NCBI GenBank assembly: GCA_938005675.1
Contig: CALKXH010000029.1
Location: 1 to 46,589 of the forward strand
DNA: 46,589 nt
Direction: 5' to 3'
From: an uncultured Anaerolineae bacterium
Lineage (GTDB): Bacteria; Chloroflexota; Anaerolineae; Aggregatilineales; UBA2796
Within the stretch, counting starts at the first letter, position 1, and every line of letters begins with the position of its first letter. Shown one piece after another: positions 6,046 through 46,104 of the stretch. The notes beneath the pieces are model-generated. The model was not told the DNA's origin. It saw nothing but the letters and a program-made list of their open reading frames with translations, and searched no databases. Both the position numbers and the translations under genes were made by a program.

Positions 6046-6885
6046 ATGTCTCGTCCCGTCGCTCATCGACTGATAAGCTCTCTTATCGGAAGCGCTTTGA
6101 TCGCCTTTGTCGCTCTGGTCGGGCTTATGCCGCGCGTTTCTAGCGCCCAGACGCCCACTCGCACGCCCTTGCCCAGCCTGACTCCCTCCGCCACGCTCAG
6201 CTTGCCGACCGCCGCGCCGATCCAGACTGAGCCGCCGCAACCGACGCCCACCTCGCCGCTGCTCGCCGCCACCGCGACGCCCTCCCTGATGCCCAGCGCC
6301 ACGCCGAATCTGCTGCGCCGAGGCAGCCCGCCGCCCCTGACCCTCGATCTGCCCTCTGATTGGCGCGTCGGCTACCAGATCGTGCCCGTGCGCGTAGCGC
6401 TGGAAGCGTATCCGATGAACGTAGCAGTCTATCGCGGCGCGCTGCGCGAGGGCGGCATCGGCACGTTGATCGTCTTGTGGGGCTTCCCCAGCATCGCGCC
6501 GCCGCCGACTTTGCCGCCCCTCGCAGGCACGCCCACCGCCCCGCCCGATCCGCTGAGCGATTTCGTCTCGCGCGCGTTGTACTCCGATGGACTGCGCTTG
6601 CTGCAAGGCGCCGTGATCGACATCACTTGCAACGTCGGCACAACCGGGCAGACTCCACTGAGCGTGGCGGGCAGGGCGGGCGTCGGCACGTATTTCAGCG
6701 TCACGCAGTGCCAAGGCGAGCCGGATACAGCCGGTTGGTTCGTGGGCGTGCGCGTCGATAACCGCAACTACTTATTCTACGTCTACGTCGAGCCAGTCGA
6801 GGCGTACAACGCCGCCCGCGCTCAGTTGCAAGAGATTCTGGACTCGGTGCGCTTCCTCGCCCCAACGCCGACCGCCGCACCTTGA
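6046..6885 (+). CDS. Secreted protein with Thr/Pro linker, function unknown
   Basis: I do not recognise a characterised family. The 279-aa product has an N-terminal signal peptide (cleavage probably after VSSA, residue 34), a low-complexity Pro/Thr/Ser linker (about 35-95) and a compact globular domain (about 97-272) ending in a short TPTAAP tail. The end of the domain (FYVYVEPVEAYNAARAQLQ, then an ILDSVRF strand) resembles PsbP/DUF1795-like domains, but this is only a visual impression. There is no lipobox. It sits 16 nt before the ABC ATPase gene, so the two are probably co-transcribed. AAGG lies about 11 nt upstream of the start. Confidence 0.75.
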   Translation: MSRPVAHRLISSLIGSALIAFVALVGLMPRVSSAQTPTRTPLPSLTPSATLSLPTAAPIQTEPPQPTPTSPLLAATATPSLMPSATPNLLRRGSPPPLTLDLPSDWRVGYQIVPVRVALEAYPMNVAVYRGALREGGIGTLIVLWGFPSIAPPPTLPPLAGTPTAPPDPLSDFVSRALYSDGLRLLQGAVIDITCNVGTTGQTPLSVAGRAGVGTYFSVTQCQGEPDTAGWFVGVRVDNRNYLFYVYVEPVEAYNAARAQLQEILDSVRFLAPTPTAAP

Positions 6886-17074: not shown

Positions 17075-18994
17075 GTGGCACTCAGCGGCATTGCTCTGAT
17101 CGTGAGCGTGGCGGCGCTGCTGCTCTCGCTGATGATGCTCACGCTGATCCTCTGGCAGGATTCGCGCAGCGCCAACAGCCGCACCTATGCCCTCTTCGTC
17201 GGCTTGATGGTCGTGTGGATCAGCGGCGTGCTGCTCAGCCGCTTGGGCAGCTCAGTGGGCGTCACGCCGAGTCTGATCGCGCTTGGGCTGCGCCTGACCG
17301 ATATCGGCTTCACAGGCGCTTGTGTGATCGGCTATTTGCTGGTCTACGTGCTGAGCAGCGGTCAGAATCAGCCTGCCCTGCGCCTGATCTACGCCGTTGT
17401 CTTGAGCGTCTTCGCCTTGCAGACGATCCTGCTGCTCAGCGCCGAGCCGTCGCGCTACCAAGTGCGCTCGGATGGCGTGCTGGTCTATCGGCTCAGCGAG
17501 CTGGGCGTCATCACCTACAGCCTCGTGAGCGCTGCGACATTGGCTTTGCTGTGGCAGCGCCGCCGCAAATTGAAAGGGCGCTGGGCGTTCATCGGCATGA
17601 GTTTGTTCAGCCTGGGCGTGCTGAGCGAGCTGATCAGCCCTGAGTTGCGTTATCGAGGCATCGGCAGCAGCCTGAGCGCCATCGGCACTTTGGCGATCAG
17701 CTATGCCATGCTGCAGACTCAGATCATCGCGCCCTTGATCGGGCGGGCGCAGCAGCTCGAAAGCGTGCGCGCCGTCGGGCTGTCCATCACGCAGAGCCTG
17801 AACCTCTCTCAGGTGCTGGCGACCATCGCTGAGCGCGCCGCCTTGATCCTGCAAGCCGACAGCGCGCTGATCTTCCTCAATCACGGCGATTACCTAGAGC
17901 TTGCCGCTGAGTACAACCTCTCGCCCAAGTTCATCGGGACGCGCCTCGCCTATGGGGAGGGCTTGGTCGGTTGCGCCGCCAAGACGCGCCAGACGCAGCA
18001 GGTTGAGAACTACCAACGCGAGTGGCGCGGCACGCCGGATGTCCCCTACGCCAAAGAGGGCTTCGGCGCGGCGGTGGCTGTGCCGCTCCTGCTGGATCAG
18101 GAGGTGCAAGGCGTCTTGCTAGTAGTTGCGGGCGTAGATAGCAAGCGCTTCGACCGCGACGATCTGCACTTGCTGGGCTTGCTCAGCCCGCAGGCGGCAG
18201 TCGCCATCGCCAACAGCCGCAACTACGAGGCGCAACGCCAGCTGACTGAAGAGCTGACTGAGGCGACCAAGCAGCTGCGCGACATGGATAAAGTCAAGAC
18301 GCAAATGTTGCAAATGACTAGCCATCAGTTGAAAAATCCGTTATTCTCAGCCCTATCGACGCTAGAAAATTTGCAAGATGAGATGCGAGACTTGCCTAAT
18401 AGCGACGATCTACAAGAGAGTTTGAATATCCTCCGCGCCGAGTTGCAGCGCATGGAACGCATCGTCTCTAACATCTTGAACCTAGAGCGCGTGCAAAACG
18501 GCAAATTCGCCTTCAGCGAGCTGAACATCGAGCTGATCATCGAAGCCGCCGTGCATGACTTCAGCTATCAAGCTCAGCAGCGCAACATACGCCTCGAAGT
18601 GAACTGCGAGTCGCCCTTGCCGCCCCTGCGCGGCGACCGTCACTTCCTCACACAGGCGCTCGCCAATTTGCTGGAAAATGCCTTGAAGTTCACGCCCGAA
18701 GGCGGTAGCGTGACGGTTCACGCCACCGCGATCGAGGATTGCGTGGTGATCAAGGTCAGCGACACGGGCATTGGCATCCCGCCCGCCGATTTGGCGCGCG
18801 TCTTCGAGCGCTTTTTCCGCTCTGAGCAGCCTAACGCCGCCCACGCGCGCGGCTCCGGCTTGGGCTTGAGCCTCGTCAAGGCGGTCGTCGATGCGCACAA
18901 CGGGCGGGTCTGGCTGGAGAGCGCGCCCGATCACGGCACGACGGTCTACATGGCGCTGCCCTTTGAGCGTGACTCACTCGGACTGCTCCTTTGA
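17075..18994 (+). CDS. Membrane sensor histidine kinase with 7TM, GAF and kinase domains
   Basis: Cognate kinase (639 aa) of the upstream regulator. Seven hydrophobic helices (about 3-225) form an N-terminal membrane sensor. A GAF domain (about 245-390) and a short coiled coil follow. The dimerisation/phosphotransfer helix has His417 in SHQLKNPL, a variant of the usual SHELRTPL. The ATPase domain has an N box LANLLENALKFTPEGG, G1 VSDTGIGIP, F box VFERFFRSE and G2 GSGLGLSLVK. Start is GTG at 17075, 17 nt after the regulator stop, with GGAG upstream. The HisKA-coding stretch (about 18290-18480) is noticeably more A/T-rich than its surroundings. The signal is unknown. Confidence 0.92.
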   Translation: MALSGIALIVSVAALLLSLMMLTLILWQDSRSANSRTYALFVGLMVVWISGVLLSRLGSSVGVTPSLIALGLRLTDIGFTGACVIGYLLVYVLSSGQNQPALRLIYAVVLSVFALQTILLLSAEPSRYQVRSDGVLVYRLSELGVITYSLVSAATLALLWQRRRKLKGRWAFIGMSLFSLGVLSELISPELRYRGIGSSLSAIGTLAISYAMLQTQIIAPLIGRAQQLESVRAVGLSITQSLNLSQVLATIAERAALILQADSALIFLNHGDYLELAAEYNLSPKFIGTRLAYGEGLVGCAAKTRQTQQVENYQREWRGTPDVPYAKEGFGAAVAVPLLLDQEVQGVLLVVAGVDSKRFDRDDLHLLGLLSPQAAVAIANSRNYEAQRQLTEELTEATKQLRDMDKVKTQMLQMTSHQLKNPLFSALSTLENLQDEMRDLPNSDDLQESLNILRAELQRMERIVSNILNLERVQNGKFAFSELNIELIIEAAVHDFSYQAQQRNIRLEVNCESPLPPLRGDRHFLTQALANLLENALKFTPEGGSVTVHATAIEDCVVIKVSDTGIGIPPADLARVFERFFRSEQPNAAHARGSGLGLSLVKAVVDAHNGRVWLESAPDHGTTVYMALPFERDSLGLLL

Positions 18995-19058
18995 CTCTCT
19001 GCGCTCTCCATCACAGCCCGACGATCAGCCCGCCCGACGCTTCTCAGCGACGCTGCGC

Positions 19059-19064
19059 TATAAT
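19059..19064 (+). promoter_or_regulatory. Perfect -10 box before the metallophosphoesterase pair
   Basis: TATAAT lies 33-42 nt before the candidate start codons at 19092 and 19101. No good -35 box is visible at standard spacing. Confidence 0.35.
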
Positions 19065-19091
19065 CTAGCCGTTTGTGTCTCGACAAAGGTC

Positions 19092-19901
19092 ATGAGCTTT
19101 ATGCGCTTCATCCACATCAGCGATACGCACCTGGGCAAGACGCCTGATTTCACCTACAACGGCTTCAACAGCTACCGCCACCTTGAGCGCGTCATCGAGA
19201 CGATCAACGCCTTGCCCTTCGCGGTCGACTTTGTGCTGCACAGCGGCGATGTGACCGAATACGGCTCGGCTGAGGAATATGTCCTCGCCCGCCGCCTGCT
19301 AGAGCGCTCCCGCTTCCCCGTCAAGTATGCCGTCGGCAATCACGATAACGCCGCTCTGCTGCAGAGCGCCCTGCTGGGCATTGAGTCGCCCAGCGGACGC
19401 TACGATCACACCTTCAGCGTCGCGGGCGTGCAGATCGTCATCCTCGATACCAACAACGGCTTCGTGCCGAACGGCACGCTGACCGAGCGCCAGCTCGCCG
19501 ATCTGCGCGCGCTCTGCACGCCTGAGGGCGCGCCGCTGATCGTCGCCTTGCATCATCCGCCCTTGCCGCTCGATACGCCGTGGCTGCAGGAGGGCTGGGC
19601 GGGCTTCGGCTTCCGCAGCATGTTGCTGAACGAGGGTGAGGCGTTCCGCGCCGCGATTGCCCCCGCGCGGGAGCGGCTGCGCGGCGTCTTCTTCGGGCAT
19701 ATTCACCGCGCCTTTCAGGTGCAGCACGAGGGTATTTTCTACTGCAGCGCGCCCAGCACGGTCATTCAGTTCGTCGCCTATCCCGAGCAGCGCGATCCCA
19801 AGCCCGCGCCAGAGGAACTGCCCGCCTTCGCCCTCGTCACCCTCGACGAAGCACAACTGACCGTCCGCCAATACGCGCTGCCGCGCCCTGAAGCAGGTTG
19901 A
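19092..19901 (+). CDS. Calcineurin-like metallophosphoesterase, CpdA-like (first of tandem pair)
   Basis: Predicted binuclear-metal phosphodiesterase of 269 aa, resembling class III cyclic-nucleotide phosphodiesterases (CpdA/Icc group). Metal-binding motifs occur in order: DTH in HISDTHLG, GDV in LHSGDVTEY, GNHD in AVGNHDN, HH in ALHHPPLP and GHIH in FFGHIHRAF. The start is either ATG 19092 or ATG 19101; the second aligns with the start of the next gene and has better spacing from AAAGG. The next gene begins five bases after the stop and is clearly paralogous. cAMP or another phosphoester could be the substrate. Confidence 0.88.
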   Translation: MSFMRFIHISDTHLGKTPDFTYNGFNSYRHLERVIETINALPFAVDFVLHSGDVTEYGSAEEYVLARRLLERSRFPVKYAVGNHDNAALLQSALLGIESPSGRYDHTFSVAGVQIVILDTNNGFVPNGTLTERQLADLRALCTPEGAPLIVALHHPPLPLDTPWLQEGWAGFGFRSMLLNEGEAFRAAIAPARERLRGVFFGHIHRAFQVQHEGIFYCSAPSTVIQFVAYPEQRDPKPAPEELPAFALVTLDEAQLTVRQYALPRPEAG

Positions 19902-19905
19902 GAGC

Positions 19906-20721
19906 ATGTTGCGCTTCATCCACCTCAGCGATTCGCATATCAGCACGCCCGACTTCGCCAATTACGGGCATCGCTCCGCCCCGAACCTTGAGGCGGTCGT
20001 GAGCGCCATCAACGCGCTGCCCTTCGAGGTCGATTTCGTGCTGCACACCGGCGACGTCGTCCAGAACGGCGCACCTGAAGAATACGCGCTCGCCCGCGCG
20101 CTCTTGGCGCCCTTGCGCTTTCCGATCCGCTACGTCAACGGCAACCACGACGCCTCCGACCTGCTGCAGCGCGAATTGGCGGGCGTTCAGACGCCGAGCG
20201 CGCGCTACGACTACACCTTCAGCGCGAAGGGCGTGCAGATCGCCGTCTTCGATAGCGCTAACCGTCGCGATCACACGGGCAACCTGACCGACTCGCAGCT
20301 CGATGCCCTGCGCAGGCTCTGCACGCCTGAGGGCGCGCCGCTGATCCTCGTCTTGCACCATCCACCCCTACCCCTCGATACGCCGTGGATCGATCAGGGC
20401 TGGCAAGTGCCTGATCGCCCGCCCTTCGGGACGATGCTGCTGGAGAATTGGCGCGCTTTTCAAGCCGCCATCGCGCCCGCCCGTCGGCGGCTGCGCGGAG
20501 TCTTCTTCGGGCATATCCATCACGCCCATCAGGCGTGGCGCGATGGCGTCCTCTACTGCGCGGCGCCCAGCACGTTCGGTCAGCTCGCCAGCCGCCCAGA
20601 GCAGAGCGCTCCGCAGCCGACGCCTGAGCAACCCGCCGCTTTCTACGTGGTCAGCGTGAATGAGGCGCAAGTGACTGTGCGGCAAGTCAGCCTGCCGCGT
20701 CCTACCAGCCAGCCGATTTGA
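19906..20721 (+). CDS. Calcineurin-like metallophosphoesterase, CpdA-like (second of tandem pair)
   Basis: Paralogue of the preceding gene (271 aa) with the same motif order: HLSDSHIS, LHTGDVVQN, VNGNHDASD, LHHPPLPLDTPW and FFGHIHHAH. Long blocks are nearly identical between the two, for example LCTPEGAPLI and RGVFFGHIH, and the gap is only four bases, indicating tandem duplication and joint expression. The DTH-type motif reads DSH here; both forms are common. Differences cluster around the region after the first metal motif and in the loop after PPLPLDTPW, where substrate contacts may lie. Confidence 0.88.
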   Translation: MLRFIHLSDSHISTPDFANYGHRSAPNLEAVVSAINALPFEVDFVLHTGDVVQNGAPEEYALARALLAPLRFPIRYVNGNHDASDLLQRELAGVQTPSARYDYTFSAKGVQIAVFDSANRRDHTGNLTDSQLDALRRLCTPEGAPLILVLHHPPLPLDTPWIDQGWQVPDRPPFGTMLLENWRAFQAAIAPARRRLRGVFFGHIHHAHQAWRDGVLYCAAPSTFGQLASRPEQSAPQPTPEQPAAFYVVSVNEAQVTVRQVSLPRPTSQPI

Positions 20722-20759: not shown

Positions 20760-22001
20760 GTGAGTAAACCAGCCATTGAAGCCTACGGGATCGGCAAGCA
20801 GTATCGCATTGGTGAGACAGTTGCTTACTACACACTGAGCGAGACGCTCTCGCGCCTTGTGCGCGCGCCCTTTCGCAAGCGCCCTAAGGCTGAGAACCGT
20901 CTCTTCTGGGCGCTGCAGGATGTCTCGTTCACGCTGCAGCACGGCGATGTGCTGGGCGTAGTGGGCAAGAATGGATCGGGCAAGAGCACGCTCTTGAAAG
21001 TGCTCTCGCGCATCACCGAGCCGACCAAAGGGCGCGCCATCGTGCGCGGACGGGTCGCCTCGCTGCTGGAGGTTGGCACAGGTTTCCACTTTGAGCTGAC
21101 CGGGCGCGAGAACATCTTTCTGAACGGCTCGATCTTGGGCATGAAACGCGCCGAGATCGCCCGAAAGTTCGATGAGATCGTCGCCTTTGCTGAAGTGGAA
21201 CGCTTCATCGATACGCCCGTCAAACACTATTCAAGCGGGATGTTCTTGCGGCTGGCTTTCGCCGTCGCCGCGCACATGGAGCCCGAAATTCTGATCGTCG
21301 ATGAGGTGCTTGCCGTCGGCGATGCCGCCTTTCAGCGCAAGAGTCTGGGCAAGATGAGCGAAGTGGCGGGCGAGGGGCGCACGGTGATCTTCGTCAGCCA
21401 CAACATGCCGACTGTGCTGCGCTTGTGCAACGTCGGGCTGTTGTTGAGCGGCGGGCGCGTGGTGACGCAAGGCGATATCCAGAGCGTGGTGAACGCCTAT
21501 GTGCGGCAAGGCGTGGAGCTGGCGGGCGAACGGCGCTTTGAGCCACGACCAGAGGCTGATCTCGCCTTCACAGCTGTGCGCCTGCGCGATTGCCGCAAGG
21601 CGATCAGCGCTCAGATCAACCTGAGCGAGGGCGCCTTCGTCGAGTTGGATTACGTGGTGCGCCGCCCGATCCGCGCCGCTCAGATTGCCTTTCGGCTCTA
21701 TAACAGCGATGGCACCTGCGTGCTGACCAGCACCGACTTCGATAGCGACCCGCGCCGCTACGAAGCCACTCACGCGGCGGGCAACTATACCGCGCGCATC
21801 TTCCTGCCCAGCGCTTACTTACGGGGCGGCAGCTACTATCTAGAGCTGGTGGCGCAAGTGCCGCACGTCCGCCTGCTCGATCACATCCAGAACAGCATCA
21901 GCTTTGAGGTGCTGGACGACGGCAGCACAATTTCGCAATTCGGCGCGCGTCCGGGCGTGATCGCGCCCGTGCTGGAGTGGCAGATTGCCGCGCAAAGTTG
22001 A
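20760..22001 (+). CDS. Polysaccharide-export-type ABC ATPase with Wzt-like C-terminal domain
   Basis: ATP-binding subunit (413 aa) of the Wzt/TagH/KpsT group that exports O-antigen, teichoic acid or other surface glycans. Walker A is GKNGSGKST (69-77), the signature is YSSGMFLRLAFA, Walker B is ILIVDEVLAVGD and the switch His is in FVSHNM. Residues from about 265 form a beta-rich domain like the glycan-recognising Wzt C-terminus. The start is GTG at 20760, with GAGGGA upstream. A TATACT box lies at 20725-20730. The usual partner permease and glycosyltransferases are absent here, so this is an orphan half-transporter in this window. Confidence 0.9.
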   Translation: MSKPAIEAYGIGKQYRIGETVAYYTLSETLSRLVRAPFRKRPKAENRLFWALQDVSFTLQHGDVLGVVGKNGSGKSTLLKVLSRITEPTKGRAIVRGRVASLLEVGTGFHFELTGRENIFLNGSILGMKRAEIARKFDEIVAFAEVERFIDTPVKHYSSGMFLRLAFAVAAHMEPEILIVDEVLAVGDAAFQRKSLGKMSEVAGEGRTVIFVSHNMPTVLRLCNVGLLLSGGRVVTQGDIQSVVNAYVRQGVELAGERRFEPRPEADLAFTAVRLRDCRKAISAQINLSEGAFVELDYVVRRPIRAAQIAFRLYNSDGTCVLTSTDFDSDPRRYEATHAAGNYTARIFLPSAYLRGGSYYLELVAQVPHVRLLDHIQNSISFEVLDDGSTISQFGARPGVIAPVLEWQIAAQS

Positions 22002-24062: not shown

Positions 24063-24133
24063 AAACCGACTCGTTTCGGGTAGAATTGGTCTCCGATGAG
24101 TATTTTACATCCCAAAGACGACTGAGGCGCTGC

Positions 24134-24928
24134 ATGAAGCCAGTGACTTTGAGCTATAGCGAGCAGGGGCAAGGCGATCCGCTCGTCTTGTTGCACGGTT
24201 TTCCTTTCAAGGGCAGCCTGTGGCAGCATCAGGCGCGCCACCTGAGCGATGCCTACCGCGTGATCACGCCCGATCTGCGCGGCTTCGGGCAGAGCGAGGT
24301 CACCGACGGCATCTATGAGATGGAGGTCTTGGCGCGCGACGTGCTCGAGCTGCTAAATAGGCTAGAGTTGCCCAAAGCGATCATCATGGGGCATAGCATG
24401 GGCGGTTACGTGGCGTTGGCGCTTTGGCGCTTGGCAGCGGAGCGCTTCAGGGCGCTAGGGCTGATCGCCTCGCACGTCTGGGCGGATAGCGAGGCGCAGC
24501 GCGAAGCGCGCGAGCAGCTGATCGCGCAAATCCTAGAGCATGGCAGCGGCGCGGTCGTGCAAGCTATGTTGCCGCGCCTGTTCGCCCCTGCTTCCTCCAC
24601 GGATGAGCCGATTCAAGAGCAAGCTCGCGCCATGATGCTTGAAGCGCGCCCCACCAGTCTGATCGGCGCATTGCGCGGGATGATGCGCCGCCCCGATAGC
24701 AGCGATCTGCTGCCGCACATCAGCGTGCCGACTTTGATCCTATGTGGCGATGCCGATCCAATCGTACCGCCTGAGCGCGCTGAGGAGATGGCGCGCCAGC
24801 TGCCGAACGCCACGCTCGTCGTGGTTGAAAATGCCGCGCACATGCCCATGCTGGAGCAACCTCAAGCGACGGCGCTGGCTATGCGCACTTTCCTCAATGG
24901 CTTGCGCCACGCTCAGCCCAAAGATTGA
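24134..24928 (+). CDS. Alpha/beta-fold hydrolase
   Basis: Predicted esterase-like hydrolase of 264 aa with a complete catalytic triad: nucleophile Ser88 in GHSMGG, acid Asp206 in CGDADPIV, and His236 in ENAAHMPMLEQP. The oxyanion-hole motif HGFPF is at 21-25 and PDLRGFGQS at 46-54. A cap domain lies between about 115 and 190. The start at 24134 is supported by TGAGG seven bases upstream; an in-frame ATG at 24086 would add residues that do not fit the family. The substrate is unknown; related proteins include 3-oxoadipate enol-lactonases and carboxylesterases. The last 16 nt overlap the convergent phosphatase gene. Confidence 0.9.
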   Translation: MKPVTLSYSEQGQGDPLVLLHGFPFKGSLWQHQARHLSDAYRVITPDLRGFGQSEVTDGIYEMEVLARDVLELLNRLELPKAIIMGHSMGGYVALALWRLAAERFRALGLIASHVWADSEAQREAREQLIAQILEHGSGAVVQAMLPRLFAPASSTDEPIQEQARAMMLEARPTSLIGALRGMMRRPDSSDLLPHISVPTLILCGDADPIVPPERAEEMARQLPNATLVVVENAAHMPMLEQPQATALAMRTFLNGLRHAQPKD

Positions 24929-25383
24929 CGAGCATACTGCTGCAAAAAGGCGCGCTGAGTCTCGGAGAGCATGTGGAAGTAACACGAGAGGCGGCGCGCC
25001 TGCACGCTCAAGATGGCTTGGCGCAGGCTCTGCCCGTGCCGCATGAAGTAAACGTGCAGCAGCGTGCCTGTGCGCCCGATCCCGGCGTGACAATGCAGGT
25101 AGACGGGCTTGCTCGCCGCCGCCATCGCATCGATGTGGTCTACAATGGCGTTGGCTTGTAGCTCGCTCGGCGCGCCGAAGTCCTCGACGGGCGAGTGATA
25201 GGTCTCGATGCCGAGCGAGGCGAATAACTCAGGCGGAAAGGCGCGCAAGGCAGTCAGCGGATGCTCAGTCAGCGAGACGATGGCGCGGATGCCTTCGGCA
25301 TGCAGTTTGTTGATCTCAGCTATGCTGCTGGGAATCGGACCTGCCGCCAAGACGTTTGGCACGATCCAGTCAAATTTGAACAT
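24913..25383 (-). CDS. Dual-specificity / tyrosine protein phosphatase
   Basis: Predicted cysteine phosphatase (156 aa) with the P-loop HCHAGIGRTG: nucleophile Cys98 and Arg104. Asp68 in VEDFGAPS is the likely general acid. The size and IVSLTEHPL segment match atypical dual-specificity phosphatases, which act on phosphoproteins, RNA or phospholipids. It is the last gene of a three-gene minus-strand unit; its ATG (preceded by GAGGGG) is one base after the stop of the FkbM gene upstream, indicating translational coupling. Its 3' end overlaps the hydrolase gene. The substrate is unknown, but glycan or lipid phosphates deserve thought given the FkbM neighbours. Confidence 0.9.
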   Translation of the reverse strand: MFKFDWIVPNVLAAGPIPSSIAEINKLHAEGIRAIVSLTEHPLTALRAFPPELFASLGIETYHSPVEDFGAPSELQANAIVDHIDAMAAASKPVYLHCHAGIGRTGTLLHVYFMRHGQSLRQAILSVQARRLSCYFHMLSETQRAFLQQYARQSLG

Positions 25384-25384
25384 A

Positions 25385-26149
25385 CTAACCCCTCAAGCGC
25401 GCGTAAACATCGCCTGAACGATGCTTCTTAGGATGATTTTCTAAGGTCTGGTAGATAGCCGCTGCGTTTGCCCAATTCGGCAGCATGAAGGTGAACGTCT
25501 CTTTGTAGACGGCGTTGAATTCGTAGTCGCCCAGCTCCTGCAGACGCGCCATGCACGCAACTGCTGCTTCGAGCAGTTCGGGCGTGTATTCGAACGAGAG
25601 GGCTTTGACAGGGTGTGAGAGCCCTTGCAACACAGGTAGTTCATAGCCCTCCACATCTATTTTAATGAACGCAGGAACGCCGTGTTCGGCGATGAGCGCA
25701 TCCAGCGTGGTGACGGGCACGCGCTGTGTGGCATACCAGCGGTGATTTTCCCAGCTGGGGCGGCTCTTCACGCGTTCGATCCACTCAGGCGAGAAAGACG
25801 AGGTGACGTTGACGTTGCTCAGATGCAGCTCGAGCTCGCCTTGCTGAGCTGCCACGCCGCCCAGATAAAACGCGGCGCGCGGATGCTTGCCGAAGCGCGC
25901 CTCGATCTGCGCCATGCACGTCGCTTGCGGCTCGATTGCCACCACGCGCGCGCCGAGCGCTAGGAAGACGGCGGTGCGATCGCCAACGTTGGCGCCCACG
26001 TCGAAAACTAAGTCGTTGGGCTGGATGAACTGCCGATAGAAGGCGCGTGTTTTAGCTGCGTGCCGCCGTCGCCGATAGGCTTCCACGATTTGGCGCGCTA
26101 CGCCGTATAAGCCCAGCTTTTTGAGCGCGCTTTTGGCTAGATGTCTCAT
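25385..26149 (-). CDS. FkbM-family methyltransferase (copy 1)
   Basis: SAM-dependent methyltransferase of 254 aa. FkbM enzymes O-methylate hydroxyls of polyketides or glycans. Motif I is DLVFDVGANVGDRTAVFLALG, quoted here by its core FDVGANVG; then come VVAIEPQ, the strand VTTLDALI and FIKIDVEGYELPVLQG, all typical. The N-terminal about 40 residues form a basic amphipathic segment that may sit on the membrane. A strong GGAGG lies six bases before the ATG. The protein is a full-length paralogue of the next gene upstream, both exactly 254 aa. In surface-glycan loci such enzymes cap O-antigen or exopolysaccharide. Confidence 0.92.
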   Translation of the reverse strand: MRHLAKSALKKLGLYGVARQIVEAYRRRRHAAKTRAFYRQFIQPNDLVFDVGANVGDRTAVFLALGARVVAIEPQATCMAQIEARFGKHPRAAFYLGGVAAQQGELELHLSNVNVTSSFSPEWIERVKSRPSWENHRWYATQRVPVTTLDALIAEHGVPAFIKIDVEGYELPVLQGLSHPVKALSFEYTPELLEAAVACMARLQELGDYEFNAVYKETFTFMLPNWANAAAIYQTLENHPKKHRSGDVYARLRG

Positions 26150-26199
26150 TCAAACTACCTCCACTATGTCTGAACTTAACCGCTGCGAGTCGAATCCCA

Positions 26200-26964
26200 T
26201 CAGTTTCTCAGGCGTGCATAAATATCGCCGGACGGATGCTTGGTCGGGTGATTTTCCAGCGCCTGATAGACTGCCTCGGCGCTCGACCAGCTCGGCAGCA
26301 CGAAGACGAACGGCTCTTTGCAGACGAGGTTGAATTCGTAGTCGCCCAGCTCTTGCAGGCGTGCCATGCACGCGCGCGCTGCTTCAAGCCACTCTGCAGT
26401 GTACTCGAGGGAGAGCGCCTTGATCGGTTGCGAGAGCCCTTGCAGGACGGGCAGCTCATAGCCCTCGACGTCGATCTTGATGAAAGTAGGGACGCCGTGC
26501 GCCGCGATCAGCGCGTCCAGCGTAGTGACAGGCACTGTCTGCGTGGCGTACCAGCTCGGCTTATTCGGACGTGGACGATCCTTGACGCGTTCGATCCACT
26601 CTGATGAAAAAGACGACTTTGCGTGCGCGCTGCTCAAGTGCAGCTCTCGCTCGCCTTGCTGAGCTGCCACGCCACCCAGATAAAACGCAGCGCGCGGATG
26701 CTTGCCGAAGCGCGCCTTGATCTGCGCCATGCACGATGCTTGCGGCTCAATTGCTACCACGCGCGCTCCGAGCGCTAAAAAGACGGCTGTGTATCTGCCC
26801 ACATTCGCGCCGACGTCGAAGACGAGGTCGTCGGGCTGAATGAATTGGCGATAGAAGGCGCGCATACGGGCTGTCAGCCGCCATCGCAGATATGGACTCG
26901 CGATCTGGCGCACGAGGCTATACAAGCCCAGCTTTTTGAGCGCGCCCTTGACGAGGTGACTCAT
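26200..26964 (-). CDS. FkbM-family methyltransferase (copy 2)
   Basis: Paralogue of the neighbouring gene, also 254 aa, with motif I FDVGANVGRYTAVFLALG, VVAIEPQASCM and FIKIDVEGYELPVLQG. Divergence is concentrated in the middle (HLSSAHAKSSFSSEWIERVK against HLSNVNVTSSFSPEWIERVK) and near the C-terminus, so acceptor choice may differ. The start is the ATG at 26964, with AAAGG six bases upstream; the frame runs on to 27123 but would overlap the divergent regulator promoter and start. It is the first gene of the fkbM-fkbM-phosphatase unit. Confidence 0.92.
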   Translation of the reverse strand: MSHLVKGALKKLGLYSLVRQIASPYLRWRLTARMRAFYRQFIQPDDLVFDVGANVGRYTAVFLALGARVVAIEPQASCMAQIKARFGKHPRAAFYLGGVAAQQGERELHLSSAHAKSSFSSEWIERVKDRPRPNKPSWYATQTVPVTTLDALIAAHGVPTFIKIDVEGYELPVLQGLSQPIKALSLEYTAEWLEAARACMARLQELGDYEFNLVCKEPFVFVLPSWSSAEAVYQALENHPTKHPSGDIYARLRN

Positions 26965-26994
26965 CAGACACCTTTGCTGTATGTAGCTGCAAAT

Positions 26995-27006
26995 TTGGCA
27001 CGCCAA
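26995..27006. promoter_or_regulatory. Candidate operator TTGGC-AC-GCCAA between divergent genes
   Basis: A perfect 5+5-bp inverted repeat with a 2-nt centre lies in the 94-nt region between the FkbM and LuxR-type genes. GTGCC recurs twice at about 27022-27034. Such a site could bind the adjacent regulator, but this is inference from position only. Confidence 0.3.
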
Positions 27007-27042
27007 CACCTGAGTTTGGGAGTGCCTCCGTGCCGAACTTGA

Positions 27043-27051
27043 TGCAATAAT
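27043..27051 (+). promoter_or_regulatory. Extended -10-like element immediately before the LuxR-type gene
   Basis: TGCAATAAT lies with its last base 8 nt before the ATG at 27059, which would place transcription start at or next to the start codon. No Shine-Dalgarno sequence is visible, so a leaderless mRNA is possible. Confidence 0.35.
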
Positions 27052-27058
27052 ACAACAT

Positions 27059-27694
27059 ATGTCGATTTCAACAAACATTTTCGGGGCTTTTGAGGGTCTG
27101 CGCGTATCGATCATCGCTCGCAATCCGCTGGCGCGCGTCGGCTTAGGCGCGCTGCTGGCGGGACGGGCGCAAGTCGTCGGTGAGGGCGCGCCCGACCTCG
27201 ATCTGATCGCTCAAATCGAGCGCACGCAGCCCGACGCGCTGCTCTGGGACGTCGATTGGGAAGCGGATGCAGCGCTTTTAGCTTCGCTCAGCGCCGAGTT
27301 GCCACCGATCCTCGCCCTGCTAGGCGATTCGACGCTCGCGGCGCAGGTCTGGGCGAGTGGCGCGCGCGGTGTGCTGCTGCGCACGGCACAGCCCGCGCAG
27401 ATCGTCGCGGCGCTGGGCGCCGTCGCGCAAGGCTTGAGCGTCTTCGAGCCCGACTTGCTGGCTGTGGCAATGCCCGAGCGCGCCCGCCTGCTCGAGGAGT
27501 CGCTCACCAGCCGCGAGCGTGAGGTCTTGCGCTTGCTGGGCGAGGGACTCGCCAACAAAGGCATTGCCGCGCGCTTGGGCATCAGCGAGAATACCGTCAA
27601 GTTTCACGTCAACGCAATCATGGGCAAGTTGGGCGCTCAAAGCCGCACCGAGGCGGTCGTGCGCGCGGCGCGACTCGGTTTGATCACTTTGTGA
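27059..27694 (+). CDS. NarL/LuxR-type regulator with degenerate receiver
   Basis: DNA-binding protein of 211 aa. The C-terminal LuxR helix-turn-helix (about 147-205) is canonical: LTSREREVLRLLGEGLANKG, then GISENTVKFHVNAIMGKLG. The N-terminal domain (about 14-130) aligns with a receiver and keeps Asp64 in LLWDVDWEAD. The usual acidic pair after strand 1 is replaced (VSIIARNPLARVGL), and the conserved Lys of the LLKDA motif is Arg (LLRTA). Mg-dependent phosphorylation is therefore doubtful. No kinase is adjacent. The gene is divergent from the fkbM unit and upstream of the GntR-type regulator. Confidence 0.88.
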   Translation: MSISTNIFGAFEGLRVSIIARNPLARVGLGALLAGRAQVVGEGAPDLDLIAQIERTQPDALLWDVDWEADAALLASLSAELPPILALLGDSTLAAQVWASGARGVLLRTAQPAQIVAALGAVAQGLSVFEPDLLAVAMPERARLLEESLTSREREVLRLLGEGLANKGIAARLGISENTVKFHVNAIMGKLGAQSRTEAVVRAARLGLITL

Positions 27695-27782: not shown

Positions 27783-28496
27783 ATGACCCCTCGACTGGAC
27801 TCGGCGCTGTTGAACTACATTGTGGAGCATAACCTCCAGCCCGGCGATCAACTGCCCGCCCTGACCGAGCTGAGCGCCCAGCTGAACATCAATGTGGGCA
27901 AACTGCGCGAGCAGCTGGAGGTCGCCCGCGCACTTGGCTTAGTGGATGTGCGCCCGCGCACGGGCATTCGCTTCCGCGAGTACGATTTTTTGCCCGCCCT
28001 GCGCCTGAGCTTGCTGGTCGCCCTCGCCCTCGATAAACGCCACTTCATCGCCCTGACCGAGCTGCGCAACCATCTTGAAGTGGCATTCTGGCATGAGGCA
28101 GTCGCGCGCCTGACCGACGCAGACAAGGCGGCGCTGCGCGAGCTGTGTCAGCGCGCTCAGCAGAAGCTGAACAATCAGCCTTTCATCCAGATTCCGCATC
28201 AAGAGCATCGCAAGTTTCACATGGGCATCTTCGCCCACCTCGATAACCCCTTCGTCAAGGGCTTGTTGGAGGCGTACTGGGAAGCCTACGAGGCTGTTGA
28301 GCTGAATACCTATGCAGATTTAGCCTATTGGCAGGAGGCGTGGACTTATCACGAAAAAATTTTGCAACACATCTTAGAAAATGACCCCGACGCGGCGTTG
28401 CAAGCTTTCATCGAGCATACGCAACTGCTGCGCCATCGCAACGGCGCAAGCGCGCCCACTAACGAGTTTTTTCACAAGCCCGCTTCGTACGAATGA
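27783..28496 (+). CDS. GntR-family regulator, FadR/FCD subfamily
   Basis: Transcription factor of 237 aa with an N-terminal winged helix-turn-helix (about 1-65: LQPGDQLPALTELSAQLNIN, GLVDVRPRTGIRF) and an all-helical FCD ligand domain (about 75-220). Likely metal/ligand residues are the Glu/His in QEHRKFHMGIF and the His in WTYHEKILQHI, as in metal-binding FCD proteins that sense carboxylic acids. It precedes korA-korB on the same strand by 31 nt. Control of that operon by a carboxylate such as a 2-oxoacid is plausible but unproven. No Shine-Dalgarno site is visible. Confidence 0.9.
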   Translation: MTPRLDSALLNYIVEHNLQPGDQLPALTELSAQLNINVGKLREQLEVARALGLVDVRPRTGIRFREYDFLPALRLSLLVALALDKRHFIALTELRNHLEVAFWHEAVARLTDADKAALRELCQRAQQKLNNQPFIQIPHQEHRKFHMGIFAHLDNPFVKGLLEAYWEAYEAVELNTYADLAYWQEAWTYHEKILQHILENDPDAALQAFIEHTQLLRHRNGASAPTNEFFHKPASYE

Positions 28497-28527
28497 CCCG
28501 ATAAGCCCAAGGAGATTCAAGCGATCC

Positions 28528-30348
28528 ATGTGTGCCGTTGAACTGACGACCGATAAGCGCACCGAGGCCGGTGTGCTGATCAACGATTTCGCTATCGTGG
28601 CTGCCACCGTGAACGGCTCCGGCAGCCAAACCGCTAACAATACGCTGGTGCGCGCCTTGTTCAAGATGGGCATCCCCGTCAATGGCAAGAACCTGTTCCC
28701 CTCAAACATCTACGGCTTGCCGACGTGGTACACCATCCGCCTGAGCAAGGATGGCTACATCGCGCGCCGCCCCGATTACCACGTGCTAGCTGCCATGAAT
28801 CCCAAGACTCAGGCGGAGGATATCGAGAAGTTGGCGAGCGGCGGCATTTGCATCCACCCCGAAGAGTGGAAGCTCAAGCCGACCCGCAGCGACATCACCT
28901 ACATCCCGATGCCCGTCCGCGAGATGGTCAAGGAGAGCGGCGCAGCGCCCGCTCTGAAAGAGTACGTCGCCAACATGGTCTACGTGGGCGCCATGGCAGA
29001 GCTGCTGGGCATCGAGCTGGCTGAGATCAAGAGCGCGCTCAGCTACTTCCTGAAAGGCAAGGCGAAGGCGGTCGATCTGAACTACTTCCTTGTGGAGAAA
29101 GCCGCCGCCTACGTCCGCGAGAATTTTGCCGATGCGCCGCGCCACTTCCGCGCCGAACGGATGGACGCCACGCAGGGCAAAGTGCTGATCGAGGGCAACT
29201 CGGCGGCGGCGCTCGGTGCGATCTTCGGCGGCGTGAGCGTGGCGGCGTGGTACCCCATCACGCCCTCCACCAGCATGATCGACGCTCTGATGGACTACGC
29301 CAAAGAGCTGCGCGTTGAGCCAGACGGCAAGACCACGCTCGCCGTTGTGCAGGCGGAAGATGAGTTGGCGGCGGCGGGCATCATCATCGGCGCCGGCTGG
29401 ATGGGCGCGCGCTCCCTCACGGCGACCTCTGGTCCGGGCATCTCGCTGATGGCGGAGTTCAGCGGTCTGGCGTACTTCGCCGAAGTGCCGTGCGTGATCT
29501 GGGATATCCAACGCATGGGTCCGAGTACAGGCCTGCCGACGCGCACCTCGCAGGGCGACGTGCTGAAGGCGTACTACCTCAGTCACGGCGATACGCGCCA
29601 CGTGGTGCTGCTGCCCGCCAATATGAAAGAGTGCTTCGAGTTCGGTTGGCGCGCCCACGACCTCGCCGAGCGCCTGCAAACACCGATCTTCGTGCTGAGC
29701 GACCTCGACTTGGGCATGAACCTGTGGATGACCGATCCGTTCGATTACCCCGATCAGCCGATGGATCGCGGCAAGGTCATCAGCTATGAAGACCTCGAAA
29801 AATTCGGCACGTGGGGGCGCTACAAAGACGTCGATGGCGATGGCATCGGCTATCGCTCGTTGCCCGGTCAAGGTCCGGCGTATTTTGCGCGCGGCACTGG
29901 TCACACCGAGTACGCCACCTACAGCGAGCGCCCCGATGACTGGTCTAAGAACCTAGATCGGCTCGCCCGCAAGTTTGAGACGGCACGCCGCCTTGTGCCA
30001 GCTCCGATCAGCCAGATCGAAGAGGATGCAGCGTTCGGCATCATCGCCTACGGCTCAACCGATGCGCCCATCGCTGAGGCGCGCGACCTGCTCAAGGCGG
30101 CTAAGGTCACCACAAGCTACCATCGCGTGCGCGCCCTGCCCTTCAGCGAGGCAACCCACGAGTTCATCGGCTTGTACGAGCGCATTTACGTCGTCGAGAA
30201 CAATTATCTTGGGCAGATGGCGCAGCTGCTCAAGATGGAATATCCCGACTTCGCCGACCGCATCATCTCGGTGAGCCACTGCGATGGCTTGCCGCTAACC
30301 GCCCGTTGGATTGCCGATTCGATCCTAGAAAAAGAACAGGGGAACTAG
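28528..30348 (+). CDS. korA: 2-oxoacid:ferredoxin oxidoreductase, fused gamma-alpha subunit (KorA type)
   Basis: CoA-dependent oxidative decarboxylation of a 2-oxoacid, most likely 2-oxoglutarate to succinyl-CoA, with electrons to ferredoxin. The 606-aa chain has the gamma domain at the N-terminus (about 18-190, VAATVNGSGSQTANNTLVRA) fused to the alpha pyrimidine-binding domain (from about 218, VAAWYPITPSTSMIDALMDY) and domain II (from about 440). This layout is that of two-subunit KOR enzymes such as mycobacterial KorAB. The start ATG 28528 has AAGGAG 13 nt upstream, rather far. korB follows three bases after the stop. Pyruvate or branched-chain oxoacids cannot be excluded. Confidence 0.9.
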   Translation: MCAVELTTDKRTEAGVLINDFAIVAATVNGSGSQTANNTLVRALFKMGIPVNGKNLFPSNIYGLPTWYTIRLSKDGYIARRPDYHVLAAMNPKTQAEDIEKLASGGICIHPEEWKLKPTRSDITYIPMPVREMVKESGAAPALKEYVANMVYVGAMAELLGIELAEIKSALSYFLKGKAKAVDLNYFLVEKAAAYVRENFADAPRHFRAERMDATQGKVLIEGNSAAALGAIFGGVSVAAWYPITPSTSMIDALMDYAKELRVEPDGKTTLAVVQAEDELAAAGIIIGAGWMGARSLTATSGPGISLMAEFSGLAYFAEVPCVIWDIQRMGPSTGLPTRTSQGDVLKAYYLSHGDTRHVVLLPANMKECFEFGWRAHDLAERLQTPIFVLSDLDLGMNLWMTDPFDYPDQPMDRGKVISYEDLEKFGTWGRYKDVDGDGIGYRSLPGQGPAYFARGTGHTEYATYSERPDDWSKNLDRLARKFETARRLVPAPISQIEEDAAFGIIAYGSTDAPIAEARDLLKAAKVTTSYHRVRALPFSEATHEFIGLYERIYVVENNYLGQMAQLLKMEYPDFADRIISVSHCDGLPLTARWIADSILEKEQGN

Positions 30349-35240: not shown

Positions 35241-42157
<6,917 letters not shown>

Positions 42158-42161
<4 letters not shown>

Positions 42162-44374
42162 TCTACGTTCCTCTCGTAGCTCTCTTCCGATTCTTCAACC
42201 GACTCAGAGGCGATCTGTGCGGCGAGTTGAATCGACGTCTGGGGTAGGCGCAAGGCTTGCCCTAGCTCGCGGATGGCAACTTGAAGGACTTGCTCCACGC
42301 TGGTTTGGCGGCTGAGGCGCTCTGTGATGGTGTTGACGAGGCGCTCGCGCTCAGCCAAGCGCTGGGACTGTTCGAGCAGACGGGCGTTATCGGCGTTGAC
42401 GGCGAGGCGGGCTGCCAGCTCACGGGCTAACAGACGCATATTTTCGTTATAGGTGGCGCGCGGCACCGTCCACTCAACGGCGCCGAAGCACTGCCCGCGC
42501 AGCGAGACAGGCACAGCGAAGGTGACGGTCTCTGCCTCGATGCGTTCTTGCAGTTCACCGGAGTAGTAAGCGCGTAGCTGCAGTTCGCTCCATTCCAGAT
42601 CGGGTTCGGGCGCCGTGAAGCCGCGTCGGGGCATGGCGCGCCGACGTGCTACTTCGTAGCCGCGCCACGCCTCGCCCAACATGCGCCGATTCAGGTCTTC
42701 AATCTCGGCGAGGCGCGCCTGCGACTCTTCGAAGAGCTGCGCGTTCGTCAGCGCGACGGCGATCTGATCGGCAACTGCTTTGAAAAAGCTGATCGCCTCA
42801 TCGTCGAAGGTCTCGGCGCGATGGCTGTGCAAGTCCAGCACGCCGAACAGACCTGCGTGCGTGCGCAGCGGCAGAGCAAGTTCGGCGCGCGTGCGGCTCA
42901 AGAGCTCGTTCGGGCTGCTCTCATCAAAGAGCTGCAGGGTGATTTGCTCGCTCTGCGCGGCGCGACCGATCACACTGCGCGGCGAGACTCCCACGCGGTA
43001 GCCCTGCGGCAAAGGCGACTCGCCCGTCTGCGCCATAGCGATGCGCAGGATGAGGGTCTGCGAAGCCGAGTCGAGGGCGAAGATGTGGACGTTGTCAATT
43101 TGCGGGAAAGACTCGCACACCAGCTCGACGACGCGGCGCATCAAGCGATCCGTATCGCGCAGGTTGAAAAGAGTCTGCCCGATGGCGCGCGTCAGTTCGA
43201 CCTCCTGCGCGCGCCGCGCGAGGCGTTTTTCCAGCGCCGCCACGTCCTGCTGCGAGAGGTTGCTCAAAGCGGGCAGAGCAGCGGCTACAATGCCAATTTC
43301 ATCCCTCTGTTTGACGGGCGGCTGAGCGACGTTGCGCCCCTGTGCAGCCAGCTGAGCAGCTTGGCTGAGCGAGCGCAGCGGGCGCACCACTGACCAGTCC
43401 AAAAAGAGGGCTAGGAGCGCTAAGACGCCCAACCCCAGCAATCCCACCAAGCTCAGTTCGGCGAGGAAACGCCCCGCCTCATCGGCGCGCCCCGTCAGCA
43501 AGACCTGCACCTCCGCCACTAAGACGCGATCCATGCCGCGCACAGGCACGCCAAAGCCGCGCACGACGCGATTGGTGACCGGGCTGATGTAGCTGATCGG
43601 CTCTGTGAAGGTCTGGGTGGCGAGCGCCCGCGCACGAGCGCGCTGTTCGTCGGATAGCTCAGCGGTTGCCTCGCCGAGCGTATCGAGGCGACCATCGGAT
43701 GCGATCAAGTAGAAGCCCAGCACGCCCGCCGGCACGTTCAACGGACGCAACGCCGTCAGGATGCTGGGCTGTCCGGGCGTGTTCCTGCCCGTCGGATCGA
43801 CGTTGATGACCAGATAGCCGATGGGGCGTCCGCTGCGACGCACGATGGTGGCGAACTCAAGCTCGAAGTCGTTGCCGCGCTGCGTGATCGGGCTGATGAA
43901 AGTGCCTCTGAAGGTCAGATCGCGCTGCAGAAAGCCGAAGTAAGGTTGTTCGCTCTCATTCACTCGCGGCTGAGCGGGCGTCGCCGCCAAAGTGCGTCCG
44001 CCAACCGAGACGAAGCGCACCTGCCGATAGGTCAGGTTGTTAGCTAACAGGTTTTGGAAAACATCCTCCACAAGACGGCGCTCGTCTTGCACGGCGGCAG
44101 CACCGGTGGCTAAGAGGGCGTAGGCATCCTGCAGGAGCGGATTTTCGACGAGACTGCGCAAATTGGCGGTGATGCCGTTGACGATCACCTGCAACGTGGT
44201 GCTGCGCTCGCGGGCGAGCGCTTCCAGCAGCGCGCCGCCAGCGGGCTGCACCGTGCCGACGTATTGGGCGCCGACGAAAAGCAACGCACCGATGAAAAGC
44301 GCCGCTACGATGAACAGGCTGCCCAAGACCTTCCAGCGCAAGGGCAGTGAAGCCAGACCGTAGGCAGGGTTCAT
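42158..44374 (-). CDS. Membrane GAF sensor protein without kinase domain (dCache-HAMP-GAF)
   Basis: A 738-aa protein resembling the front end of the giant kinase: TM1 (about 12-37), dCache-like domain (40-298), TM2 (304-327), HAMP-like linker (328-385), coiled coil, GAF (400-550), the motif DLNRRMLGEAWRGY (560-573), a half GAF (617-670) and a conserved tail ending in PQTSIQLA near 718. It lacks HisKA and ATPase motifs, so it cannot itself act as a kinase. An acidic stretch ends the chain. Both its start and stop are ATGA overlaps, so translation is coupled to its neighbours. It probably transmits signals by protein contact. Confidence 0.9.
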
Positions 44375-46104
44375 GAGGCTGCTCCCGAATCGATGTAGCC
44401 GTTTGAAGAGGCATCTTGGTCGCGGCGGGTGGGCAGACCGAGCCGTACACTCGTTTGGAGGGCGCCCAGCGCTTGCTGGAAAGCATCCACAGCCACTGCT
44501 ACGAGGGTATCGACGTCGCTCTTTGCCTGCAGCTCAGTCGCCACTCGATTGGCGATCTGCTCGCGAGCAATTGCCATCTGCGCCTGATCGTAGAGCCGTA
44601 GGTTATCCAGCGAGAGCGCCAAGCGCTGCGCGATGGCGCGCGCTAACTCAACGCTGCGATCATCCCAGAACTGACCGTCGGGCGCCCGAAATTCCATCAC
44701 GCCTAATGCCTGCCCGCGCGAGACAATCGGCACGACCAAGTATTGCGCGCCGTCGCGGTCTTCAATGTACGGAATATAGCCGTAGGTGCTGCGGGTGGGC
44801 ATCGGGACCGTTCGTGTGCCGCTGGTGAGCATGTCGCCATCCCAATCGAAGCTGATGACCTGCTCCGAGCGGCTTTGCAGGTAGAGTTGCCATGCCCGCC
44901 CGCTCATCTCTTGGTTGAGGCGCTCGATCTGGTGGCTGGCGGTGCGCACCTGCTCGATCAGCTCCTGTTGATCGCGATTAGCGAGCTGGAGCGCCTGTTG
45001 CAAACGCAAATTCTGAATGGCGAGCGCCAATTGAACTGCCAACGCTTCCAAGCTCTCGATCTCGCGAGCGGAGAAAGCTTCAGAATCGGTGCTTTGCAAG
45101 TCCAGCACGCCGATAGTGGCATCGCCGACGCGCAACGGCACAACCAACTCAGCGCGCACAGCGGGGGCAAACTCGCCCCGACGGGCGGGCGGCGCATCCG
45201 CTGAGATGCGCTGCGTTCTGCCCGCACGGGCGACCTCCGCGATCACGCTGGGGCTGTTGAGCATCAGGCGGCGCGCTGAGCCGTCTCGCTGAGCGGGCAG
45301 GCTGCCCGTGCTGGCGACGAGGCTCAGCGCGTCACTTTTCTCTTCGGTCAGGAAGATTTGAACGTGGTAGTAGCCCAATTTTTCATGCATCAGGGCGAGG
45401 GTTTTGTTCAGCAGCTCGTCGATGTCGGCGACCTCGCTCACGATACGGCTCAGCGCGCCGATGCGACTCAGCTCGCGGTCTAGGTTCAAGTTCGTCTGCA
45501 ACAAGGTGCGCTGACTGCCCACGAAGGCGACCAGCATCCCGCCAGAGACTGCGAAGACCAGCAACACGAAAGGAATATAGGCGGGCGTCGGCGGCGTACG
45601 AGGATAATCCACCAGACCAACGCTGATGAGGAGCGCCTGAAGCAACAGCGAGATCAACACAATGCCCGTCACGGTCAAGGCGCCCGAACGCCGCAGCAAA
45701 ACACCGCCTGCCACAATCGGGATGACATAGCCGATCAGCACGCGGCTTTGCATGGTATTATCGCCGATCAGAAAATTGAGCAGGGCGACAGAGATGAGCA
45801 ACCCGCCCACAAAAATTATGCGCGCCGCCTCCAGAGAGCCGCGCTGGATCAGGAACAAGACTAGCCCAACCGTCACCAGCACAACAAGCAGAAAGATCGA
45901 TGGATTTACCCTGACCAGCGCGCCTAGCACAACGATCTGGAAGGTTTCGTACTGCTCGCGGGCTGCAGTCAGGACGATGGCGATGCCCAGCACGGAGGAG
46001 GCTATCAGCACGATCAATGCGATGGTATACAAGGCGCGCGCCTGTTGCGCCTCAAACTCGTTGGCGAAGCGCTCGCGCAGCCGCAAGAGGTTTCTCAGTC
46101 CCAT
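44371..46104 (-). CDS. Membrane GAF sensor protein without kinase domain (6TM-GAF)
   Basis: A 577-aa protein with about six membrane helices (about 27-195), a coiled coil, GAF (223-370), coiled coil, the motif RLNQEMSGRAWQLYLQSR (395-412), a half GAF (455-510) and a helical tail ending in ALGALQTSVRLG (545-556). No kinase, cyclase or methyl-accepting segment follows. The six-helix region is a different input module from the Cache domains of the two downstream proteins. GGAGGG precedes the ATG; the upstream gene ends 12 nt before it. The stop overlaps the next start. Confidence 0.9.
   Translation of the reverse strand: MGLRNLLRLRERFANEFEAQQARALYTIALIVLIASSVLGIAIVLTAAREQYETFQIVVLGALVRVNPSIFLLVVLVTVGLVLFLIQRGSLEAARIIFVGGLLISVALLNFLIGDNTMQSRVLIGYVIPIVAGGVLLRRSGALTVTGIVLISLLLQALLISVGLVDYPRTPPTPAYIPFVLLVFAVSGGMLVAFVGSQRTLLQTNLNLDRELSRIGALSRIVSEVADIDELLNKTLALMHEKLGYYHVQIFLTEEKSDALSLVASTGSLPAQRDGSARRLMLNSPSVIAEVARAGRTQRISADAPPARRGEFAPAVRAELVVPLRVGDATIGVLDLQSTDSEAFSAREIESLEALAVQLALAIQNLRLQQALQLANRDQQELIEQVRTASHQIERLNQEMSGRAWQLYLQSRSEQVISFDWDGDMLTSGTRTVPMPTRSTYGYIPYIEDRDGAQYLVVPIVSRGQALGVMEFRAPDGQFWDDRSVELARAIAQRLALSLDNLRLYDQAQMAIAREQIANRVATELQAKSDVDTLVAVAVDAFQQALGALQTSVRLGLPTRRDQDASSNGYIDSGAAS

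Follow-up and report, generated by a model that had tools for sequence, protein, structure and literature searches.

The window, by which we mean the whole stretch of 46,589 nucleotides analysed here, carries on its minus strand three open and intact genes that lie head to tail: fkbM_A, fkbM_B and a gene for a dual-specificity/tyrosine-type phosphatase (DSP; Table 1). The original prediction described two FkbM paralogues of equal length followed by a DSP whose ATG lies one base past an fkbM stop, and this description is accurate: both fkbM frames encode 254 aa, all three proteins score above the cut-offs of their families, and a single T (25384) separates the TAG of fkbM_B from the phosphatase ATG (25383). 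A GAGGGG stretch in the fkbM_B tail is a possible ribosome site for the phosphatase. For fkbM_A an additional in-frame TTG occurs far upstream; the ATG at 26964 aligns with the fkbM_B start and has AAAGG upstream. At its 3' end the phosphatase gene overlaps the end of the convergent alpha/beta-hydrolase gene by 16 bp. We found no terminator-like site on the minus strand in 24700-27200, and from this, the spacing and the common strand we infer that the three genes form one transcription unit. The 94-bp region upstream of fkbM_A, in which no sigma-70-like site was found, is presumably the control region of both fkbM_A and the divergent LuxR-type regulator. The alpha/beta-hydrolase marks the conserved locus; its membership in the operon is without support.

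Table 1. Genes and intervals at the fkbM-phosphatase locus, in window coordinates
Feature	Position	Strand	Evidence
FkbM_A, FkbM-family SAM-dependent methyltransferase, 254 aa	26200-26964	-	PF05050 61.7 bits, TIGR01444 94.3 bits
Spacer fkbM_A/fkbM_B, 50 bp	26150-26199	-	GGAGG ahead of fkbM_B ATG (sequence)
FkbM_B, FkbM-family methyltransferase, 254 aa	25385-26149	-	PF05050 62.1 bits, TIGR01444 93.7 bits
Dual-specificity/tyrosine-type phosphatase, 156 aa	24913-25383	-	PF22785 77.8 bits, PF22784 65.7, PF00782 40.3
Intergenic region, 94 bp, fkbM_A to divergent LuxR-type regulator	26965-27058		Coordinates
LuxR-type (GerE) regulator, divergent from operon	27059-27694	+	PF00196; synteny
Alpha/beta-hydrolase, convergent neighbour	24086-24928	+	PF00561

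FkbM enzymes methylate hydroxyls, and the O-methyltransferases of this family include FkbM of FK506 synthesis and rhizobial NoeI. Both FkbM proteins of the window exceed the curated Pfam and NCBIfam cut-offs (PF05050, 22.7 bits; TIGR01444, 37.7 bits), carry the SAM-site motif VFDVGANVG and are 77% identical over their full length (196/253). They resemble the known enzymes in their SAM-binding and FIKIDVEGYE motifs, in a domain above the curated cut-offs and in a fold like that of the FkbM structure 2py6, but differ from them in lying outside any polyketide or Nod-factor cluster and in belonging to a subfamily of ~250 aa with predicted N-terminal helices, whose genes occur mostly among varied neighbours. 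The predicted structure of FkbM_B (pLDDT 84) has a class-I methyltransferase fold, and its best solved matches are class-I methyltransferases. The single FkbM-named structure among the matches listed, 2py6, lay outside the best 50 Foldseek matches and surfaced on realignment; its Z of 12.9 (rmsd 2.7 over 162 residues, 18% identity) ties with other methyltransferases among the matches listed.

Between the two copies dN is 0.145 and dS 0.91 (dN/dS about 0.16), and dN/dS in genus pairs, with an fkbM fragment of genome G001 left out, is 0.08-0.24; these values are signs of purifying selection on both FkbM copies and on the phosphatase. Given this selection on both copies and a junction that recurs in related genomes (see below), the arrangement is not a chance pattern of open reading frames. 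FkbM_A is the faster-evolving copy. At 45 columns conserved to at least 90% in 24 relatives it deviates twice (R58Y, L82I) and FkbM_B once, while FkbM_B is closer to the relatives' copy (72-77% identity) and nearer in dN to those of G002, G003 and G004. Identity between the copies ranges from 0.68 to 0.95 in 20-codon blocks with a peak at codons 61-100, which may reflect gene conversion. In the FkbM tree supports among genus members are 39-65, leaving the date of the duplication unfixed. Tandem FkbM genes are not rare, as two lie close together on contig C2 of genome G006 and on contig C219 of genome G011.

The phosphatase scores above the cut-offs of all three DSP-type families in Table 1 (PF22785, PF22784, PF00782). 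Its HCHAGIGRTG loop is intact, and the HCHAGIGRT part is identical in the genus sequences save for one I/V change in G003. Asp68 in the motif EDF, which we take to be the general acid, is kept in 4/4 genus sequences and aligns with the DF of PDB 25xa and 5z5b. By sequence the closest solved chains include 25xa, human DUSP23 and prokaryotic PTPs, among them 5z5b; a structure prediction, made from only 3 sequences, was poor (pLDDT 50). With DUSP23/VHZ and prokaryotic DSPs (25xa, 4erc, 5z5b) the protein shares its size, the HCX5RT/S loop and the aligned Asp-Phe ahead of that loop, and it differs from them in its genomic coupling to FkbM. DUSP23/VHZ-type enzymes have been tested largely on phosphoproteins. 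The top Pfam scores for the domain belong to Tc-R-P (PF22785) and PTP-SAK (PF22784), from which the window's phosphatase is set apart by being free-standing, with neither a toxin nor a multi-domain fusion. To judge from its name, Tc-R-P is presumably the DSP of polymorphic toxins, fused to toxin-system domains; we rejected this identity for the 156-aa protein, which is the phosphatase domain alone. The window's genome holds a second DSP (~197 aa, contig C115, 4124-4717) directly after a D-Ala-D-Ala-ligase-like gene, with a Mur-ligase-like gene adjoining, and in G004 a DSP (6293-6880 of the fetched stretch) follows a D-Ala-D-Ala-ligase-like gene in the same order (both judged by eye).

Five genomes of one genus, the window's own (G000) and G001-G004, were compared. 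The coupling of fkbM to the phosphatase is upheld in four of them (G000, G001, G003, G004), where the pair occupies the same place with a tight junction each time: a gap of 1 bp in G000 and 2 bp in G001, an overlap of 14 bp in G003 and 1 bp in G004. In all four the end of fkbM contains a purine-rich stretch. Synonymous sites of the phosphatase are far diverged within the genus (pS 0.53-0.71). G003 and G004 hold a single fkbM and the phosphatase between the same LuxR-type regulator and alpha/beta-hydrolase; the regulator also neighbours fkbM in G002, and the hydrolase also adjoins the phosphatase in G001, where a GNAT gene also keeps its position and fkbM is cut by the contig end. Conservation of all three genes, the check proposed originally, is not what we see: two fkbM copies are seen only in G000, G003 and G004 have one, G001 is cut by the contig end and G002 is without the phosphatase. 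A conserved three-gene system was thus rejected, the duplication being seen in only one of the five genomes, and the trio reflects fkbM duplicated locally and in tandem within a pair shared at genus level.

The fkbM sequence of G002 falls on two contig ends: C292 starts within the gene, with residues 1-226, and C309 breaks off within the last 26 residues. Compared by eye, these ends make up a single fkbM gene with about two bases missing, so that G002 probably carries one copy, two copies being the less likely alternative. Past the fkbM stop, C309 shows an 11-codon frame (VFGIDWMSRIH) that ends in a stop and resembles the phosphatase start, with other sequence beyond. The alpha/beta-hydrolase lies on another contig, C19, beside a different gene and no phosphatase. 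No close relative of the phosphatase was found in G002, the sole match being a distant paralogue. The phosphatase was therefore apparently lost in G002 while fkbM was kept, with an assembly error as a possible alternative. With no more than a remnant of the phosphatase left in G002, fkbM seems able to be maintained alone, and this apparent loss counts against strict dependence.

Outside the genus the proposed linkage breaks down. The phosphatase has relatives, 44-47% identical, in G007 (same family) and in G016 and G044 (same order), none of them beside fkbM; beyond the genus, therefore, the outcome that the original prediction had named as its refutation does occur. In a class sample of 298 genomes (phosphatase E <= 1e-12, FkbM subfamily E <= 1e-25), 25 genomes hold the phosphatase and 25 the FkbM subfamily, the window's genome being included in both counts. 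In the flanking sequence, which reached 1.5 kb at most and less where some contigs ended, no phosphatase match was found at the other FkbM loci (0/24) and no FkbM match at the other phosphatase loci (0/25, in 24 genomes). When all FkbM loci tested are taken together, some places being counted twice, a DSP occurs at 1/46 (in G038). The neighbours of the FkbM subfamily are mostly varied: the commonest family among 49 ORFs is FAA hydrolase (7/49). Two of the 49 are glycosyltransferases of GT2 type and one matches GT1 families. Among the nearest phosphatase relatives no common partner was recognised by eye, the neighbours being an alpha-galactosidase and an RraA-like gene in one case and a peptidase and a carbamoyltransferase-like gene in another. 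With the pair common to the nearest relatives and absent in distant ones, the arrangement looks local and fairly ordinary.

A second type of FkbM/DSP pair exists in the order. In 151 order genomes searched at E <= 1e-5, 101 match PF05050 and 121 match PF22785, and among the matches listed at least three pairs outside the genus lie within about 2 kb (G038, G047 and G377; positions compared by eye). Their FkbM (~310 aa) and DSP (~190 aa) belong to subfamilies other than those of the window. The two genes are 9 bp apart in G038, and in G377 a gene judged peptidase-like by eye stands between them. The ~310-aa FkbM occurs in 39/151 genomes, with a DSP at 3 of 30 fetched loci and no DSP pair among the matches listed for the nine remaining genomes. 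By a rough estimate, chance would yield 0.23 pairs within 2.5 kb over the 85 genomes that hold both families. Two independent kinds of linkage then have a Poisson P of about 0.02 (rough) and four separate pairs a P of about 1e-4; both are uncorrected for phylogeny and come from a test chosen afterwards, and 0.02 is the safer figure. In G047 (contig C136; locus L131, 5265-9682) the genes run head to tail as DSP, sulfotransferase, FkbM, M24 peptidase, RmlC-type epimerase and Y_phosphatase3, so that this glycan-like cluster holds two different phosphatases. The second pair, found once in such a sulfotransferase/RmlC setting, hints weakly that FkbM and DSP share a role in envelope glycans.

The reading we favour, with a probability of about 0.55 for the overall picture, is that of a genus-specific operon in which O-methyltransferases of a surface glycan or lipid, tandemly duplicated in G000, are accompanied by a co-translated, dispensable DUSP23/VHZ-like phosphatase. 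According to this model, the divergent LuxR-type regulator probably controls the operon, from which a class-I SAM-dependent FkbM O-methyltransferase and the small DSP would be produced together. The targets of both FkbM enzymes would be hydroxyl groups on a glycan or glycolipid of the cell surface, and the two copies may have begun to diverge, perhaps as to acceptor or position. The phosphatase would serve that envelope process too, its substrate being a phosphorylated intermediate or a protein, but methylation would not require it. The glycan setting is suggested by the FkbM family and the G047 cluster rather than by the window: a Pfam scan of 30 of its ORFs detected neither a glycosyltransferase nor a sugar-nucleotide gene. 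The GT2- and GT1-type neighbours of the FkbM subfamily also speak for the model. Against it stand the otherwise varied neighbours of that subfamily and the lack of a common partner among the nearest phosphatase relatives; a Wzt-like ABC ATPase (20760-22001) lies nearby in the window, but no close copy of it was found in the fetched G004 stretch around fkbM. That the phosphatase and the methyltransferases are directly linked in function is a tentative proposal, and we lean against it.

A serious competitor, which we put somewhat short of even odds, is that the phosphatase landed behind fkbM by chance in the ancestor of the genus and was kept by inheritance, the two activities being unrelated and the phosphatase acting, for example, on signalling phosphoproteins. 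The unlinked partners across the class sample, the varied neighbours of the phosphatase relatives and the retention of fkbM alone in G002 all agree with such an accident. However, the coupling persists in four of the five genus genomes despite the far-diverged synonymous sites, a pair from other subfamilies recurs in the order, and two independent kinds of linkage are seen where 0.23 pairs are expected.

The original prediction went further, proposing that one and the same glycan or lipid intermediate is dephosphorylated by the phosphatase and methylated by FkbM. The translational-type junction in the genus, the single run of DSP, sulfotransferase, FkbM and RmlC genes in G047 and the second DSP behind a D-Ala-D-Ala-ligase-like gene in G000 and G004 are in its favour; yet the phosphatase is by sequence near DUSP23/VHZ-type enzymes, whose tested substrates are largely phosphoproteins, it is apparently dispensable in G002 and no phospho-sugar gene adjoins it, and we consider this sequence of steps unlikely. 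One may speculate that DSP and FkbM form a recurrent, unreported two-enzyme module for envelope-glycan tailoring in this Chloroflexota order; FkbM would methylate a phosphorylated glycan or carrier edited by the phosphatase, and the module would have arisen at least twice from different subfamilies. This broader version is distinctly unlikely. A regulatory role, in which dephosphorylation by the phosphatase controls the FkbM enzymes or else the LuxR-type regulator, would suit the close fkbM-phosphatase spacing and the position of the regulator beside the operon. The 30 window ORFs scanned include histidine kinases but no recognised kinase gene of the Ser/Thr or tyrosine type, there is no evidence for phosphorylated FkbM proteins, and we regard this role as very unlikely.

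Two other identities were rejected. PADLOC gave no match for FkbM_B or the phosphatase and a partial 19-bit match of FkbM_A to mad2 over 63 residues, which does not make a defence system. PHROGs returned only generic methyltransferase families and, for the phosphatase, a weak 37-bit match to a family annotated as thymidylate synthase, which does not make a phage gene set.

Our literature searches found no report of an FkbM-phosphatase gene pair. In the available excerpts of two articles an FkbM gene stands in a polysaccharide-type cluster; the phosphatase term occurs there in a reference title only (PMC3684757) or denotes a gene of its own in the legend to a figure that compares clusters (PMC3584063). 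What we describe is two common, known enzyme families in a modestly conserved, lineage-specific two-gene operon with a local gene duplication. If the phosphatase does work with the methyltransferases, the pair would offer a lead to cell-surface decoration in Chloroflexota and a function for one of the many orphan bacterial DSPs.

Elsewhere in the window, two adjacent and mutually similar phosphoesterase-like proteins are encoded at 18891-20721 (+), each matching the other's copy in relatives at 56-59%. Behind them lies the Wzt-like ABC ATPase mentioned above (20760-22001), which carries a Wzt_C domain. Three consecutive GAF-domain sensor proteins, two with weak Cache matches and one a multi-GAF histidine kinase of 2306 aa, lie at 35241-46104 (-). 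The ORF of a 2-oxoacid:acceptor oxidoreductase alpha subunit (28381-30348, +) begins inside the preceding GntR-type gene with an overlap of 116 bp, and its true start probably lies later than listed.
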